Shown here: in pieces, positions 1,326-8,175 of the stretch
How the letters are laid out: each line of letters starts with the position of its first letter
Numbering within the stretch: position 1 is the first letter of the stretch
From: Caldisericia bacterium
GTDB lineage: Bacteria; Caldisericota; Caldisericia; JAAYUI01
NCBI GenBank assembly: GCA_017999835.1
Contig: JAGNLA010000016.1
Span: forward strand, 1 to 33,722
Direction: 5' to 3'
DNA: 33,722 nucleotides
Position numbers and translations under genes: made by a program
Notes under the pieces: generated by a model
Seen by the model: the letters and a program-made list of their open reading frames with translations, nothing else
What the model was told of the DNA's origin: nothing
Databases searched by the model: none

Positions 1326-1997
1326 CTACCCAACGTCCTGGTACCGAGCTTTTCTGGAAATCTGTTCAAGGCTCACCCTTGGCCCCATGGCTATGATTAG
1401 ATCGTTGTTACATAGCGGATCATTGGGGTTTGGAGGCATGATTACTTGCCCGTCTCTTCGCAGGGCAACGATTATTATGCCCCTATCCTGACGGAGGTTT
1501 AAATCTGAAATCTTCTTGCATTTCCACTCATTTGGAATAGGGAATTCAGTTATGGCGTATTCATCGGAGATCTCGATAAAATCAAGAAAGCTTGTCCCAG
1601 TTATCCTGTTGAGGATTCTCAACGCCATGTCCTCTTCTGGCGAAAAGATGTCGTCAGCACCAATTTTTTGGAGAATTTTTGCGTGAGTGTGGGTTTCGGC
1701 TCGGGCAATAACAAATGGAACGCCGATTTCCTTGAGCGTTGAGGTCATCAAGATGTTGTTCTCAATGTTTTTGCCAAATGCAACAACGGCAACCTGACAT
1801 TCAGCAACACCAGTTTCCCTTACACTTGTTTCGTCTACATGACGAAGCAAGCAAACCTTGTCCAATACATTGCGGACACGCTCTATCTTGTCACGCTCCA
1901 TGTCCACGGCCATCACGCTGTAGCCTTTCTTTGCCAACTCGACAGACAGAGCCAGACCAAAGCGACCCAATCCAAATACTGCTACCTGTATAGGCAT
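1326..1997 (-). CDS. KtrA/TrkA-type potassium channel regulatory subunit
   Basis: The 223-residue protein has an RCK-N Rossmann fold starting VAVFGLGRFG (Gly9, Gly11, Gly14) for NAD(H)/ATP binding and an RCK-C domain from about residue 140. That is the size and layout of KtrA/KtrC, the cytosolic gating ring of Ktr potassium uptake systems, rather than the doubled TrkA of enterics. The membrane partner KtrB/TrkH is not next to it, so it lies elsewhere or the protein gates another channel. The start ATG follows AGAGGTG at a good distance. It is divergent from the SCIFF-like peptide gene and stops with TAG. Confidence 0.85.
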   Translation of the reverse strand: MPIQVAVFGLGRFGLALSVELAKKGYSVMAVDMERDKIERVRNVLDKVCLLRHVDETSVRETGVAECQVAVVAFGKNIENNILMTSTLKEIGVPFVIARAETHTHAKILQKIGADDIFSPEEDMALRILNRITGTSFLDFIEISDEYAITEFPIPNEWKCKKISDLNLRQDRGIIIVALRRDGQVIMPPNPNDPLCNNDLIIAMGPRVSLEQISRKARYQDVG

Positions 1998-2031
1998 AAT
2001 ACACCTCTGGTGGAGAATATACTGTGTTTCC

Positions 2032-2059
2032 TTGACTGGTAATTACGGTTTGGTAAAAT
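2032..2059 (+). promoter_or_regulatory. Promoter for the SCIFF-like peptide/maturase operon
   Basis: TTGACT (2032-2037), a 16-bp spacer and TAAAAT (2054-2059) form a good sigma70-type promoter. It leads into GGAGG just before the peptide ATG at 2077. Confidence 0.6.
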
Positions 2060-2076
2060 TTTTTCCGGAGGTTTTA

Positions 2077-2238
2077 ATGACTATCGAGATCATCGTCAGG
2101 AAACCGGCAATGTGTCAGATTGACGACCCAAAGTGCAGGGAATGCCAGACACCATGCAAGTCTGCCGCAAAGACTGCAAACACAACCGGAAACCAGGTCT
2201 GCGAACTCAAAGGAGAGCAGTCACCCTGGATACTGTAA
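2077..2238 (+). CDS. SCIFF-like (ranthipeptide) precursor peptide, five-cysteine variant
   Basis: A 53-residue peptide has a clear GGAGG site 6 nt before its ATG. The core from Cys20 to Cys42 follows the clostridial SCIFF pattern (recalled from memory: CGECQTSCQSACKTSCT, then an NQ-x-C element), reading CRECQTPCKSAAKTANTT and then GNQVC. Cys20, Cys23, Cys27 and Cys42 are kept. The positions of the fourth and fifth family cysteines are Ala31 and Asn35. An extra Cys13 lies in the leader, and a WIL tail follows. The neighbouring radical SAM gene is of the SCIFF-maturase type, which supports the call. SCIFF/ranthipeptides receive Cys-to-residue thioether bridges; their role is unsettled. A non-modified small Cys protein is the alternative. 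Confidence 0.8.
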   Translation: MTIEIIVRKPAMCQIDDPKCRECQTPCKSAAKTANTTGNQVCELKGEQSPWIL

Positions 2239-2267
2239 GCCGGATTCACGTTTTCAAAGTTTTTGAC

Positions 2268-3557
2268 ATGACCCTGTTGTTCGATACGACGACAGGGTCT
2301 CTTCTTTTGCCGGATGAGGAATCTGCTGACATTTTTGCCAAACTGGAATCCGGACAAAAACCAAACCTTCCAAAAGAAATTCAAACTCTTGTCGATGATG
2401 GTGTCATTATGGGCAAGATTACAATACCTGGGCCGCAAACCCTTTCGCCAAAATCTCTGTGCATGATAGTTTCTCATGCATGCAATCTCAATTGCACCTA
2501 TTGCTCCCTTGGTTCAGTTACTGGTGAAGGAACAACCATGAGCATCGAAACAGCCAGAAAAACTCTTGACTGGCTTGTTCCAAACGCTCCAGGGCAAAAA
2601 ATCGACATCGATTTTTTTGGTGGCGAACCCCTGCTTGCCTGGGAAACCGTCAAGGATTCAATTCTTTACGGCAATGAACTGGCAAAAAAAAACGACAAGA
2701 ATCTTCGATGGTCGATATCCACCAACGCTGTTGGGCTGACCGATGAGATACTGGATTTCTGCGATGAAAAATATGTTTCGCTTGTTTTGAGTCTTGACGG
2801 GGCAAAGCAGGCAAACGACGTTTTCAGGCTGACAAAACTTGGACAAAGCTCATACGATAAGGTTCTTTCAAATATTCTAAAAGTGGTCGCAAGACGTGAG
2901 CGTGGGTATTATGTTCGGGGAACCTACACGTCAAAAACCATCAATTTTGCGGATGAAGTCATAACTTTGCACAAACTTGGAATAAAATCGCTGGCTTTTG
3001 AACCGGTTGTGACAAGCGATCCGGATTTGGCTCTCACAAATGAAATGCTTCCGGTCATCAGGCGTGAATATGAGAAGCTTGCAAAATATTATGTAGACCA
3101 AAAACTATCCGGGAATCCGTTCAGATACTACCACTTCGAGCTGGATCTTGAACAGGGGCCATGCATCAGAAAAAGCGCTGGTGGATGCGGAGCAGGAGCA
3201 GAGTATCTGGCAGTTTCTCCCAATGGAACTTTTTATGTCTGTCACCAGCTTGACGGAATGAAGGATTTTTCGCTTGGCAACCTGGATAATCCTCCGAGCC
3301 AGTCGGATTTTGATGTGTGGACTCAAAACAACCATCTATTGTCAAAACCAGTATGTTTGAATTGCTGGGCAATGTTTTTGTGTTCAGGTGGATGCCTTGC
3401 AGCCAATAAAACAACAAAGGGCGACATTCGAAGCCTGCACGATGTTGGATGCGAGATCCAAAAAATAAGGCTCGAAGTCGCCCTTTGGATAAATAGCTAT
3501 TTGAGGATTTGCGGAACCAATGCTTCCAGTTCAGTAAGTGATTTTTCCAATTCGTAA
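2268..3557 (+). CDS. Radical SAM/SPASM peptide maturase (SCIFF maturase, CteB-like)
   Basis: The radical SAM CxxxCxxC is Cys72/76/79 (HACNLNCTYC), followed by a DFFGGEPLL motif. A C-terminal SPASM region (GPC...GCGAG, VCHQL, CLNCWAMFLCSGGC, GCE) should carry two auxiliary Fe-S clusters. This pattern and the immediately upstream peptide mark it as the enzyme that installs thioether crosslinks in the SCIFF-like precursor. ATG 2268 has no SD. Homology appears to extend upstream in frame (IHVFKVFD, from 2244), and an AGGAG at 2211-2215 is better placed for a CTG at 2226, so the true start may be non-AUG inside the peptide's 3' end. The 3' end overlaps the convergent gene by 61 bp, and its tail beyond GCEIQKIR is longer than I expect for the family. 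Confidence 0.88.
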   Translation: MTLLFDTTTGSLLLPDEESADIFAKLESGQKPNLPKEIQTLVDDGVIMGKITIPGPQTLSPKSLCMIVSHACNLNCTYCSLGSVTGEGTTMSIETARKTLDWLVPNAPGQKIDIDFFGGEPLLAWETVKDSILYGNELAKKNDKNLRWSISTNAVGLTDEILDFCDEKYVSLVLSLDGAKQANDVFRLTKLGQSSYDKVLSNILKVVARRERGYYVRGTYTSKTINFADEVITLHKLGIKSLAFEPVVTSDPDLALTNEMLPVIRREYEKLAKYYVDQKLSGNPFRYYHFELDLEQGPCIRKSAGGCGAGAEYLAVSPNGTFYVCHQLDGMKDFSLGNLDNPPSQSDFDVWTQNNHLLSKPVCLNCWAMFLCSGGCLAANKTTKGDIRSLHDVGCEIQKIRLEVALWINSYLRICGTNASSSVSDFSNS

Positions 3558-3883
3558 GTGGTAGCTCCGGACACTTTGCTTGTTGGACTCCAAAGCTGGT
3601 TACGCCTTGCAACCCAGTTTTTCTCAAAATAACCGATCAAGGCTTTCGCCCTGCCGATTGTCTCGAGGTTTACATTAGGATACTTGTCTGCCATTGCCCC
3701 GTTCATTTCCTTGATTATTTCAAGGTCGCCCTCGATGGCAAGGTAGCGTTTGTCCAGTTCGGTAAGTTTTCCGGCGCGATCCCTTGCTGAAGCCTCAATG
3801 TTTTTGCGATTGGCAAAAACAATTGCCACACCAGCAACGACGCCTATGGCCACCGCAACCAGAATCAACCATATAAATGTCAT
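3497..3883 (-). CDS. Small single-pass membrane protein linked to PspA
   Basis: The 128-residue product has one strong N-terminal transmembrane segment (residues 2-24) and a largely helical, charged cytosolic part. I do not recognise a family. Its ATG lies 3 nt after the pspA-like stop, with an AAAGG inside that gene's end, so the two are probably translated together. This suggests a membrane anchor or partner for the PspA-like protein, comparable in logic but not in sequence to PspB/PspC or LiaI. The last 61 bp overlap the convergent radical SAM gene. Confidence 0.7.
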   Translation of the reverse strand: MTFIWLILVAVAIGVVAGVAIVFANRKNIEASARDRAGKLTELDKRYLAIEGDLEIIKEMNGAMADKYPNVNLETIGRAKALIGYFEKNWVARRNQLWSPTSKVSGATTYELEKSLTELEALVPQILK

Positions 3884-3885
3884 TA

Positions 3886-4545
3886 TCAGGCGCCTTTCAG
3901 TCTCAGAAGCCTCTGTTCAATCTCGTCGCTGTTGTTGCTCTTTGCTATTTCGTCGTCAAGTGAGTCGGCAATTGAGCCGATTTCTGCAAGAGCCTGAACC
4001 TTTTGCTCTCTCTTGATGACTCTTTCTTCAAGTTCGTCAAAGGTTGTGCCGATGTCTGGAGTTGAGATGCCTGACATGGTTTTGACAACCTTTTCCTGCG
4101 CCTTTGAAGCTTTGTCCCTGGCAACGAGTTCGTCAAGCTTCATTGATGCTTCTTCAATCTTTGCCTTGAGGGCATCGAGTACCTGCTTGATTTTTCCGTT
4201 TGTCTGTCCCTGAGTGACAAGTGAGTTTTCGGCTGCCTTTTCCTGGTTTTCGAGTGTCACAACCCTTGCAAGACATTTTCTTGAGAGATCTTCGTTGCCT
4301 GCTCCAAGGGCATTCTTTGCTGCGAGGTTGTATTTGTTGAGGTCTGATTTGATTTCACTGAGTCTGATCTCTGTTGTTTTGTAAGAAGCCATTGATTCTG
4401 CAAGTGCATCTGCCGCTTCAGCGTACTGCTGTCTCATTTCATCAATCTTGAACGGCAACATCTTTGCCGGATCCTCCATTGTTTTGAGCCAATCGTTGAC
4501 ATTGCTGTTTAGAATGTCGCCAACTCTTTTCCAAAATCCTGCCAT
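3886..4545 (-). CDS. pspA: PspA/IM30 (ESCRT-III-like) family membrane stress protein
   Basis: The 219-residue, almost wholly alpha-helical, charged protein has an N-terminal amphipathic start (MAGFWKRVGDIL) followed by EDPAKML, as in PspA/Vipp1, where this helix binds stressed membranes. Long coiled coil fills residues 30-150, and a C-terminal helix ends EQRLLRLKGA. It probably maintains envelope integrity. The operon continues with the small membrane protein at 3497-3883. It is divergent from the ABC exporter, so both could respond to envelope stress (inference). Confidence 0.85.
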   Translation of the reverse strand: MAGFWKRVGDILNSNVNDWLKTMEDPAKMLPFKIDEMRQQYAEAADALAESMASYKTTEIRLSEIKSDLNKYNLAAKNALGAGNEDLSRKCLARVVTLENQEKAAENSLVTQGQTNGKIKQVLDALKAKIEEASMKLDELVARDKASKAQEKVVKTMSGISTPDIGTTFDELEERVIKREQKVQALAEIGSIADSLDDEIAKSNNSDEIEQRLLRLKGA

Positions 4546-4577
4546 TTTTCAAAACCTCCTCTATAGGTATCATTAAC

Positions 4578-4606
4578 ATTTTATATATGTGCGGCTTATT
4601 AGGCAA
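4578..4606 (-). promoter_or_regulatory. Promoter for the pspA-like operon
   Basis: On the minus strand TTGCCT (4601-4606), a 17-bp spacer and TAAAAT (4578-4583) form a sigma70-like promoter. No convincing sigma54 -24/-12 element, as used by enteric pspA, was seen. Confidence 0.5.
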
Positions 4607-4631
4607 TATCCCTTGAAAACTATAGGTTGTC

Positions 4632-6398
4632 ATGGATAATCTTTTCATGACAGTATTCCAATATTACGCACGACTAATTAGACCCTATTTTGGACAATAT
4701 GTTTTGTCACTGTTTGGCATTCTTTCAACGACGCTTAACATGCTCATACCGAAGATTGTGATGAGTGGAAGCATTGATGCTGTAAATAACAAATTGCCCG
4801 ATGCCAACGCTATAGTCCTTAGACTCATGATATTTGGTCTAATAATAACGGTAGTCAGAATTGTTATTTTTCTTTTTGCCAGGTTCAGCCTTGCAAAAAT
4901 ATCCCGAAAAGTTGCCTTCGACCTTCGAAATCAAATTTATGACAAGCTTTTGGTTTTGCCGGACAAGTTTTTTAACAATATGGCGTCTGGCGAGGTCATG
5001 TACAGGGCAAGCTCTGACGTGCAGCAGATCATGCAGTTGCTTGGAGCGGGTTCGGTACAATTTCCAAATGCCATTTTTACGACGATTGTGGGTCTGATTT
5101 TCATTTTTATGACCTCATGGCAGCTTGCATTGGTCATCGTTTTCTTCATTCCGTTTGTCTTTCTGATTGAGTTTATTTTTGGCAAGAGGATTCACAAACT
5201 TTTCTTCCTCATCCAACAATACTTCGATAAAATCAGTGACAGAATAAACGAGAACCTCTCAGGCTCGAGAGTAATCAAGTCCTATGCTCAGGAGAAGCTA
5301 GAAGAAAAACGCTTTGACGGCATGCTCAACACCTATGTCGACAAGGTGAAACCTTTAAACAAAATTCTTGCCATCTGGTGGCCATTGCTTTATCTGACAA
5401 TCAACCTCCCTGTCATTGCGATCATCTGGCTTGGCGGTGTCCTTGTAATTAACAAAGCTATAACAATTGGCGACCTTTCGGCTTTTGTTGTCTACATATT
5501 CATGCTTGTTTGGCCAATGATCATGATGGGCTGGATAATCAACATGTACCAGCGTTCAAATGTATCCATCAAAAGAATCCTTGAAATAATCAATGCTCCA
5601 GTGGATATCACCACTCCTCCAAACGCATACAACCCGGCAAAGACAACAGGCGATATCGAACTCGAAGACGCAACTCTAACCTACGGTCATGACCAGAACA
5701 AAATCAGCCACATCAACCTCAAGATTCCGACAGGTCAGATTGTTGGCGTTGTCGGCCCGGTAGGTTCTGGCAAGAGCTCTTTGGCAAAGCTTCTACTTCG
5801 AATCTGGGATTGCGACAACGGTTCTGTCAAGATTGACGGTGTCAATGTCAAAGATTGGGATCTCAAGACTCTGAGGGGATCATTTGCCTATGTGCCCCAG
5901 GATGCGTTCCTGTTCTCCTCGTCGATATCTGACAACATCGCTTTCGCAAGGCCAGAAGCAACTCGGGAAGAGATACTTCTGGCAGCCGAGCTTGTCCAGA
6001 TAAGGAAAGAAGTTGAAGATTTCCAAAAGAAATTCGACACAATCATTGGAGAGAGAGGCGTTACGCTTTCAGGCGGACAAAAACAGAGGGTTGCAATCGC
6101 CAGGGCAATGCTTCAGGACACGCCCATGATGATCCTTGACGACCCGTTGTCGGCAGTTGACACCAACACCGAAGAGGCGATTCTAACAGCCATAAAGCCA
6201 AAACTTCAAAACAGAACAGTGCTCATCATGGCTCACAGGGTCAGTGCCCTGCGCCATTGTCAAAGAATAATCGTTCTCGACCATGGAAAGGTGGTTGAGG
6301 ATGGCACCCAGGAAGAGCTGATAGCCAAGAAGGGCTATTTTGCAAAACTGGTTGAACAGCAGAAACTAGAATCACAAATGGAGGAAGCCAATGCCTGA
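4632..6398 (+). CDS. Heterodimeric ABC exporter, subunit with degenerate Walker B
   Basis: The 588-residue half-transporter has a six-helix type IV exporter membrane domain (to about residue 320) and an ATPase domain with Walker A GPVGSGKSS (375-383), intact signature LSGGQ (479-483), Walker B ILDDP and H-loop His535. Asp504 replaces the catalytic Glu, as in TM287-type subunits of heterodimeric exporters. The complementary subunit follows with an 8-bp overlap. The pair should export lipophilic drugs, lipids or peptides; the substrate is not evident. The SD is weak (AGG six nt before ATG); Met6 at 4647 is an alternative start. Confidence 0.9.
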   Translation: MDNLFMTVFQYYARLIRPYFGQYVLSLFGILSTTLNMLIPKIVMSGSIDAVNNKLPDANAIVLRLMIFGLIITVVRIVIFLFARFSLAKISRKVAFDLRNQIYDKLLVLPDKFFNNMASGEVMYRASSDVQQIMQLLGAGSVQFPNAIFTTIVGLIFIFMTSWQLALVIVFFIPFVFLIEFIFGKRIHKLFFLIQQYFDKISDRINENLSGSRVIKSYAQEKLEEKRFDGMLNTYVDKVKPLNKILAIWWPLLYLTINLPVIAIIWLGGVLVINKAITIGDLSAFVVYIFMLVWPMIMMGWIINMYQRSNVSIKRILEIINAPVDITTPPNAYNPAKTTGDIELEDATLTYGHDQNKISHINLKIPTGQIVGVVGPVGSGKSSLAKLLLRIWDCDNGSVKIDGVNVKDWDLKTLRGSFAYVPQDAFLFSSSISDNIAFARPEATREEILLAAELVQIRKEVEDFQKKFDTIIGERGVTLSGGQKQRVAIARAMLQDTPMMILDDPLSAVDTNTEEAILTAIKPKLQNRTVLIMAHRVSALRHCQRIIVLDHGKVVEDGTQEELIAKKGYFAKLVEQQKLESQMEEANA

Positions 6399-8175
6399 GT
6401 ACGTACACGAAGAAGAGATCATTGGCAAGCCGTTTGATTTAAAGTTGACCATGCGTATGATCAGGTTCCTGGCTCCATACAAACCAATGGTTGTCCTGTC
6501 GTTTGTAATGCTAATGCTATGGACGCTTTCATCAATGTTCCTTCCAATTTTGATGAAAATTGCAATAGATGACATGGTCAAAGCTGGAGATTATACAGGT
6601 TTGATGTACGTCTGTCTGGCTTATATCGGATTGCTTTTGTTCAAGGTAGTCGCCCAGTATTTTCAGGTTTTGACCATGAGCAACATCGGCCAGCTGATGA
6701 TGAGAGACATGAGAAACGCCATATTCTCAAAACTTCAGGCTCTGCAGATGACTTATTATGACAAAAATCCTGTTGGCAGGATTTTTACAAGAATGACCTC
6801 AGATGTTGATTCGGTGTTTGAATTTATCACTGATGGCGTCATCACCGTCATTGCCGACATCATCATCGTAATTGGTACCATTGTTTTCATCTTCTGGATG
6901 GACTGGCGATTGTCGTTGGTGACTATTGCCCTGTTTCCATTGATGATCGGCCAAGCCTGGGTCTTCCAGTATCTTGCAACCCGATTCTACAGAAATGTCA
7001 GAATCAAGCAGGCAAAGGTCAATGCGTTCCTCAACGAAAACATCATGGGCATGAGAACAATCCAGTGGAGCAACAGACAAAAAGTCAACAAAGGCATGTT
7101 TTTCAAGATCAATGAAGACATGTACAAGGCTCAGCTCAAATCCATGCTCAACTTCACAGTGTTTATGAATGGCATCGACTTTACCCAGACGGTTGCGCTC
7201 GTATTGTTGATTTTTGTCGGATCAAAACTCATTCTTGCCGGAACAGTCATGGTTGGTACGGTCATGGCGTTTGGTACATATGTTCAGAACTTCTATGGTT
7301 CTATGCATGACATTTCTGAGCATTTCAACACATTCCAGACGGCAATGGTCGGCGCCGAGAGGGTCACCGAATTGCTTGACTATCCGGTGACCATTCAGGA
7401 CAAACCAAATGCAATCGAGATAAATGATAGGTTACAGGGCAAGGTGACCTTTGAAAACGTCACCTTCAGCTATGACGGTAAAAACGATGTTCTCAAAAAT
7501 GTCAGCTTTACGGTTGAGCCTGGTCAGACTGTTGCAATCGTTGGCCCAACGGGTGCTGGTAAAACCTCGATTATCAGCCTGATATCAAGGCTGTATGACA
7601 TCCAACATGGCGATATCAAAATAGACGGAATCTCGATTTACGACATGAAGCTTGAATCGCTGCGAAGGATGACCTCGGTTGTGCTTCAGGATCCGTTCAT
7701 CTTCTCCGGTCTTGTAATTGACAACATCAAACTGCTTTCAAATATTTCGGACGAAGTTGCCATCAATGCGGCAAAAGTCGTAGGCGCTGATGATTTCATT
7801 GACAGGCTTCCAGACTGCTACAACCATGTTCTGACCGAGAGGGGCTCAACGCTCTCTGTTGGCCAACGGCAGCTTCTGTCGTTTGCAAGGGCAATCGCAC
7901 ACGACCCAACAATCCTTGTGCTTGATGAGGCAACAAGCTCGATTGACACAGCCTCGGAACAAATCATTCAGGAAGCACTGAGCAAAATTGTCAAGAATCG
8001 AACCTCAATAGTAATTGCCCACAGGCTCTCAACCATCAAAAACGCCGACAAGGTGCTTGTCATCAGCAACGGCAAAATAGCAGAACAGGGAACCCATGAC
8101 CAGCTGCTTGCTCAAAATGGTCTTTACAAGAAGCTCTATGAACTTCAATACAAGGGTCAGGAAACAGCCAAGTAA
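6391..8175 (+). CDS. Heterodimeric ABC exporter, subunit with consensus catalytic Glu
   Basis: The 594-residue half-transporter has a membrane domain to about residue 330, Walker A GPTGAGKT (385-392), a degenerate signature LSVGQ (488-492), Walker B VLDEATSSID with Glu513, and H-loop His544. The altered signature should face the degenerate Walker B of the partner, leaving one fully active ATP site, the typical TM287/288-like asymmetry. ATG 6391 follows GAGGAAG within the upstream gene's end, so the two are translationally coupled. Confidence 0.9.
   Translation: MPEYVHEEEIIGKPFDLKLTMRMIRFLAPYKPMVVLSFVMLMLWTLSSMFLPILMKIAIDDMVKAGDYTGLMYVCLAYIGLLLFKVVAQYFQVLTMSNIGQLMMRDMRNAIFSKLQALQMTYYDKNPVGRIFTRMTSDVDSVFEFITDGVITVIADIIIVIGTIVFIFWMDWRLSLVTIALFPLMIGQAWVFQYLATRFYRNVRIKQAKVNAFLNENIMGMRTIQWSNRQKVNKGMFFKINEDMYKAQLKSMLNFTVFMNGIDFTQTVALVLLIFVGSKLILAGTVMVGTVMAFGTYVQNFYGSMHDISEHFNTFQTAMVGAERVTELLDYPVTIQDKPNAIEINDRLQGKVTFENVTFSYDGKNDVLKNVSFTVEPGQTVAIVGPTGAGKTSIISLISRLYDIQHGDIKIDGISIYDMKLESLRRMTSVVLQDPFIFSGLVIDNIKLLSNISDEVAINAAKVVGADDFIDRLPDCYNHVLTERGSTLSVGQRQLLSFARAIAHDPTILVLDEATSSIDTASEQIIQEALSKIVKNRTSIVIAHRLSTIKNADKVLVISNGKIAEQGTHDQLLAQNGLYKKLYELQYKGQETAK

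Follow-up and report, generated by a model that had tools for sequence, protein, structure and literature searches.

The window analysed here, a stretch of 33,722 nucleotides from a Caldisericia bacterium (phylum Caldisericota), carries the gene for a SCIFF-type ranthipeptide precursor and, overlapping its 3' end, the start of a gene for a SCIFF-type maturase (Table 1). Genes for a TrkA-type protein, a 128-aa protein without Pfam match, a PspA/IM30 protein and two ABC exporter subunits surround the pair (1326-8175). The sister genus has largely the same neighbours; the stretch compared there includes just the first exporter gene.

Table 1. Features of the precursor and maturase genes, numbered from the first base of the window
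Feature	Position	Strand	Basis
Promoter-like TTGACT-16-TAAAAT, ahead of the precursor gene	2032..2059	+	consensus match 10/12
Precursor ribosome binding site GGAGG, 5 bases 5' of the ATG	2067..2071	+	direct sequence reading
SCIFF-type ranthipeptide precursor, four core cysteines, 53 aa	2077..2238	+	PF13165 match; peptide recurs in five family genomes
Cys13, extra, upstream of the core	2113..2115	+	translation; Cys12 instead in the sister genus
Core CRECQTPCKSAAKTANTTGNQVCE	2134..2205	+	translation and family comparison
Ala31, site of the CteA thioether donor Cys32	2167..2169	+	Ala in 5/47, Cys in 42/47 phylum peptides
Thr33, counterpart of the CteA acceptor Thr34, retained	2173..2175	+	Thr in 47/47 phylum peptides
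Asn35, site of the fifth SCIFF cysteine	2179..2181	+	Cys in just 9/47 phylum peptides
SCIFF-type maturase (RRE, radical SAM and SPASM), 443 aa from the probable start	2226..3557	+	TIGR03974, CteB match, AF2 model
12-bp terminator-like hairpin with T-rich tail, within the 5' end of the maturase frame	2270..2299	+	
Radical SAM cluster motif CNLNCTYC	2481..2504	+	alignment with CteB
SPASM region with auxiliary-cluster C313, C321, C339, C377, C380, C386, C390 and C409	3162..3452	+	invariant columns, CteB alignment

The promoter-like site is listed as a suggestion only, because four such sites occur in the window against 2.2 expected by chance. The open frame of the maturase runs from 2124 to 3554 and ends with the stop codon at 3555-3557. 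No ATG, GTG or TTG precedes the first RRE strand in the maturases of the host family (f1; five genomes in two genera), and translation probably starts at a non-standard CTG at 2226. The C of this codon is the third base of a Pro codon and its TG the first two bases of the following Trp codon in the SPWIL tail of the precursor, so that the maturase gene overlaps the precursor stop (2226-2238). The equivalent start site is ATG in the related families f5 and f6 (loci L011, L018 and L020) and again CTG in locus L025. Hairpins comparable to the one in the 5' end of the maturase frame (11-13 bp, with a T-rich tail) occur at the equivalent place in all four sister-genus loci (L032-L035). CTG start and hairpin would together be expected to hold the maturase below the level of the peptide. 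A hairpin with a T-run at the maturase 5' end is also found in L016, L017, L018 and L028, which belong to other families, and this recurrence hints at attenuation inside the coding region.

Identity and cysteine pattern of the precursor

The precursor frame translates to MTIEIIVRKPAMCQIDDPKCRECQTPCKSAAKTANTTGNQVCELKGEQSPWIL*. The peptide matches the Pfam SCIFF model PF13165 with 40.0 bits (E 3.5e-10; curated cut-off 27) and the NCBI model TIGR03973 with 39.8 bits (E 3.2e-10), the latter below the equivalog cut-off of 50. In a profile search of the 1.89-Mb host genome it was the sole match to TIGR03973, with a score of 38.9. The two profile matches exclude a chance open reading frame. A search of PDB sequences with the peptide gave zero matches.

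In CteA and Tte1186a, according to published work, the fourth cysteine (Cys32) donates the sulfur of the thioether and Thr34 or Thr37 accepts it (PMC8326336, PMC8172795). No other donor position has been mapped in SCIFF peptides. Alignment of the window peptide with CteA gives an unambiguous register (C20/C23/C27/A31/T33/N35/T36/C42), in which cysteines 1, 2, 3 and 6 of the six-cysteine SCIFF pattern are kept, the fourth is replaced by Ala31 and the fifth by Asn35, and one further cysteine lies outside the pattern. Both candidate acceptors are retained, as Thr33 and Thr36. The donor segment S-A-C-K-T reads S-A-A-K-T in all five members of the host family. The original prediction, which had described a SCIFF-like precursor with a preserved CxxCxTxC and NQ-x-C framework, two lost family cysteines, alanine at the published donor position and an extra Cys13, is borne out by these comparisons, and the related genomes that it proposed to search do contain the Ala/Asn pattern. 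The peptide is best called a SCIFF-derived four-cysteine variant, not a standard SCIFF, because the Pfam cut-off is passed and a SCIFF-type maturase lies directly downstream, whereas the scores of precursor and maturase fall below both NCBI equivalog cut-offs and neither the six cysteines nor the donor segment is present.

The C-terminus (2215-2235) is a basic extension ending in WIL. Such extensions with an aromatic end motif (WIW, FIW, WIL or FVF) are typical of precursors of the same class (L002-L020, L023-L047) and are missing in the clostridial peptides and in family f7.

Donor loss in Caldisericota and Clostridia

A sample of 54 Caldisericota genomes was examined by profile search, and SCIFF precursors were found in 47. 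The core CRECQTPCKSAAKTANTxxNQxCE is present in all five host-family genomes, with KSAAKTAN identical throughout, and every one of the five alanines at the donor position belongs to this family. At the fifth-cysteine position the 47 phylum peptides have Val (15), Ser (14), Cys (9), Asn (5) or Met (4). Cysteines 1, 2, 3 and 6, the S-A and K-T pairs, the second Thr and N-Q (Asn39-Gln40) are invariant. Loss of cysteine 5 is commonplace in the phylum (38/47) and loss of cysteine 4 is the hallmark of the host family; of the two losses singled out originally, it is the fourth that is special. The order of dispensability within the phylum is thus C5, then C4, with C1, C2, C3 and C6 never lost.

Between the two genera of the host family, 9-11 synonymous differences per 15.3 sites stand against 4 nonsynonymous differences per 56.7 sites in the core, and the pN/pS of the maturase is 0.09-0.12 within the sister genus. 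By these measures the precursor-maturase pair is conserved under purifying selection and is not decaying. The absence of two conserved residues could also be read as a decaying gene pair or a sequencing error, but this is hardly credible: the same residues recur in five assemblies from two genera, pN/pS is low in both genes and all catalytic cysteines are retained. Sequencing error and pseudogene were rejected on the family-wide residues and the low pN/pS.

Although the variant had been regarded as one of a clostridial peptide, its host belongs to Caldisericota, outside the clostridial set, and donor loss was found in Clostridia as well. An evenly sampled set of 391 Clostridia genomes, 304 of which carry a SCIFF core as long as the search pattern prescribes, was screened for donor-position codons whose first base is A, C or G; the pattern demands C1, C2, C3, C6, Ala, Lys-Thr and Gln, and T-initial codons other than Cys would escape notice among the matches that were not listed. 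Three of the 391 genomes (L130-L132) lack the donor and have Ser instead (SASKTSC). One of the three belongs to a GTDB family in which 120 genomes were examined and 8 proved to be without donor (7 Ser, 1 Val). In the precursor of genome G850 (locus L133), Val replaces the fourth cysteine and Ser the fifth (SAVKTSS, in CGECQVSCQSAVKTSSAVANQKC); this peptide also has a leader cysteine and, having lost both cysteines, is in its sequence a parallel of the host-family state. Loci were read for seven of the donor-less clostridial precursors, and in each a SCIFF-type maturase gene adjoins the precursor. The search pattern matches 268 of 300 genomes in the class of the Selenomonadaceae genome G062; the matches listed, read by eye, all have Cys at the donor position. 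The 77 clostridial precursors found beside maturases all have the donor, which the reading pattern itself required; a looser pattern applied to the maturase-adjacent set revealed no donor loss. Donor loss is therefore rare and not unique to the host family.

In the maturase tree, the host-family enzymes form one clade (100/100), which lies in a starred set with the same-class families f3, f5 and f6, and those of the three sampled clostridial Ser variants group apart from them, in a clade of their own (100/85) among the Clostridia. From this separation it follows that donor loss arose at least twice. Two side observations concern the clostridial peptides: loci L058 and L101 contain two tandem SCIFF units within a single open reading frame, and in a large group (e.g. 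L049, L058, L063 and L064) Gly occupies the site of Thr37 (CKTSCGVANQ). In the latter group Thr37 cannot be the acceptor, which favours Thr34.

These distributions bear on an alternative in which SCIFF does not need the Cys32-Thr bridge. Its irreducible part would then be C-x2-C-x3-C-x14-C (residues 20, 23, 27 and 42), a putative metal or Fe-S site or a set of disulfides, and donor loss would cost just an accessory staple. We consider both this proposal and its consequence rather unlikely, though deserving of serious weight. The four cysteines found by profile search in every phylum peptide, against 38 losses of C5 and 5 of C4, agree with it, as do the independent clostridial losses, which keep the same four cysteines, although there the search pattern required them. 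An intact maturase under strong purifying selection would nevertheless need a reason if nothing were made, and elsewhere donor loss hardly ever occurs.

The maturase and candidate crosslinks

The maturase has the RRE, radical SAM and SPASM architecture with every cluster cysteine in place. Its best NCBIfam match is TIGR03974 with 384-387 bits, under the equivalog cut-off of 425; the donor-keeping families f3 and f5 likewise score below this value. The models NF040492 (not_ScfB, a ScfB-related orphan maturase; 332.7 bits, cut-off 855) and NF047865 (freyrasin-type PapB; 223.2 bits, cut-off 340) score lower. The nearest solved relative is CteB (5wgg, E 1.8e-90), and an AlphaFold2 model built from the CTG at 2226 (mean pLDDT 86.3) superimposes on 5wgg with a TM-score of 0.85/0.86 over its full length, the RRE included.

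Five near-invariant residues are altered in all host-family maturases: F to S after CxxxCxxC, S121A, T165S, S257A and F366T. A first count of departures at conserved columns (7-9 against 0-3) had pointed to specific co-adaptation of these enzymes, with conservation defined while the compared families were included. When each family was left out in turn, the departures amounted to 11-13/80 in the host family, 10-12/79 in the donor-keeping sister family f3, 8-9/79 in the donor-keeping f5 and 0/68 in the Ser-variant Clostridia. As f3 and f5 resemble the host family, the claim of co-adaptation was dropped, and until shown otherwise the changes are to be read as lineage divergence. The changed maturase specificity that had been offered as one way to accommodate the alanine is thus unsupported. 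Nor is it probable that the enzyme performs a different chemistry on the donor-less peptide, such as epimerisation or C-C bond formation; the five altered residues would fit such a change, but the departures are equal or nearly equal in f3 and f5 and the predicted fold is that of CteB, and we rate this option as quite remote.

A bridge shifted to the leader side deserves more attention, if still improbable. The extra cysteine would be joined to an aspartate in a freyrasin-like Cys-X3-Asp motif, which is present in both genera (C13-QID-D17 in the window, C12-SNI-D16 in the sister genus), and PapB forms Cys-Asp thioethers (PMC9413430); the leader cysteine of G850 points the same way. The cysteine position is, however, unequal between the genera, two adjacent Asp make a chance CX3D easy, a cysteine lies within 12 residues before C1 in 11 of the 77 donor-intact clostridial precursors, and the maturase scores 384 bits with the SCIFF maturase model against 223 with the PapB model. 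That the extra cysteine compensates for the lost donor is not supported, in view of its variable position and the leader cysteines of the 11 normal clostridial precursors; L136, itself donor-less, lacks an extra cysteine.

Two readings are the most likely, and the sequence does not decide between them: the maturase is still active and uses a retained cysteine, or SCIFF can do without the Cys32-Thr bridge. The original alternative of a crosslink formed elsewhere or a changed maturase left out this third option, a bridge that is dispensable or not the relevant product. We give about an even chance to a functional SCIFF-type pair whose maturase still makes a thioether with the sulfur of a retained cysteine; a thioether to a non-alpha carbon is what defines a ranthipeptide. 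The precursor leader would bind the N-terminal RRE domain and cysteine 1 could come near an auxiliary cluster, as CteA cysteine 1 (Cys21), which is not the donor, does in the CteB-peptide structure (PMC8326336). With the SAM cluster and both auxiliary clusters retained, the sulfur would be drawn from a remaining cysteine. The first-choice bridge would be Cys27 to Thr33, since Cys27 is the nearest remaining cysteine N-terminal of the retained acceptor; Cys20, Cys23 and Cys42 are possible alternatives.

The retained-cysteine bridge is favoured by the core that is identical in five genomes of two genera, by purifying selection on both genes, by intact cluster cysteines and a CteB-like predicted structure throughout, by Thr33 and Asn39-Gln40 in all phylum peptides, by the position of CteA cysteine 1 and by the tolerance of PapB, a related ranthipeptide enzyme, for Cys-to-acceptor spacings of 0-6 residues (PMC9413430). 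It is weakened by the finding that the other cysteines of CteA and Tte1186a stayed unbridged under the tested conditions (PMC8326336, PMC8172795), by the maturase sequence, in which a scan found no pointer to a particular new donor, and by the maturases of independent donor-less peptides, which show no unusual change. Since the donor is lost family-wide and peptide and enzyme are conserved, the staple would be located elsewhere, or the product that matters would be something else.

Few RiPPs are as widespread as SCIFF, whose active form and function are unsettled. The published bridge sites conflict (Cys32 to Thr37 or to Thr34), bridging of the other cysteines has been posed as a question (PMC8326336), and the Cys32-Thr bridge has been mapped solely in reconstituted or heterologous systems. 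In the literature searched, which covered few subscription papers, neither a SCIFF without the donor nor any SCIFF from Caldisericota was found to be described. As donor-less peptides arose at least twice beside intact maturases, the Cys32-Thr bridge may, although this is less likely than not, be neither universal among SCIFF products nor the feature that defines them; the conserved chemistry or binding site would then reside in C1, C2, C3, C6 and the K-T and N-Q pairs. Natural precursors that lack the assigned donor offer a clean test of the bridge: if the maturase still bridges them, the donor assignment is too narrow, and if it makes no bridge, selection preserves something else.

Comparison with known systems

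The window peptide resembles CteA of Clostridium thermocellum and Tte1186a of Caldanaerobacter in size, in the C-x2-C-x3-C-x-S-A-x-K-T core, in the NQ-x-C end, in both acceptor threonines and in the maturase gene next door. It differs from CteA by Ala in place of the donor Cys32 and Asn in place of Cys36, and from both peptides by the upstream extra cysteine, the WIL-ending tail and the TIGR03973 score below the cut-off. The maturase shares with CteB (5wgg/5why) the full-length predicted fold including the RRE, the CxxxCxxC motif and all SPASM cysteines; it is about 41% identical to CteB in the radical SAM-SPASM portion, and several otherwise conserved residues are altered.

The donor-less clostridial peptides (L130-L132, L134-L136 and L133) have in common with it the missing fourth cysteine and an adjacent maturase, and L133 also the missing fifth cysteine and the leader cysteine. 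Their donor position is occupied by Ser or Val, not Ala, and they are no close relatives of the host family; the Ser group, moreover, retains the fifth cysteine and has Ser or Ala at the Thr37 position. Freyrasin (PapA/PapB) likewise belongs to the ranthipeptides, and its radical SAM/SPASM maturase is related. It differs in its repeated Cys-X3-Asp motifs, in being without the SCIFF core and in the lower score of the PapB model on the window maturase.
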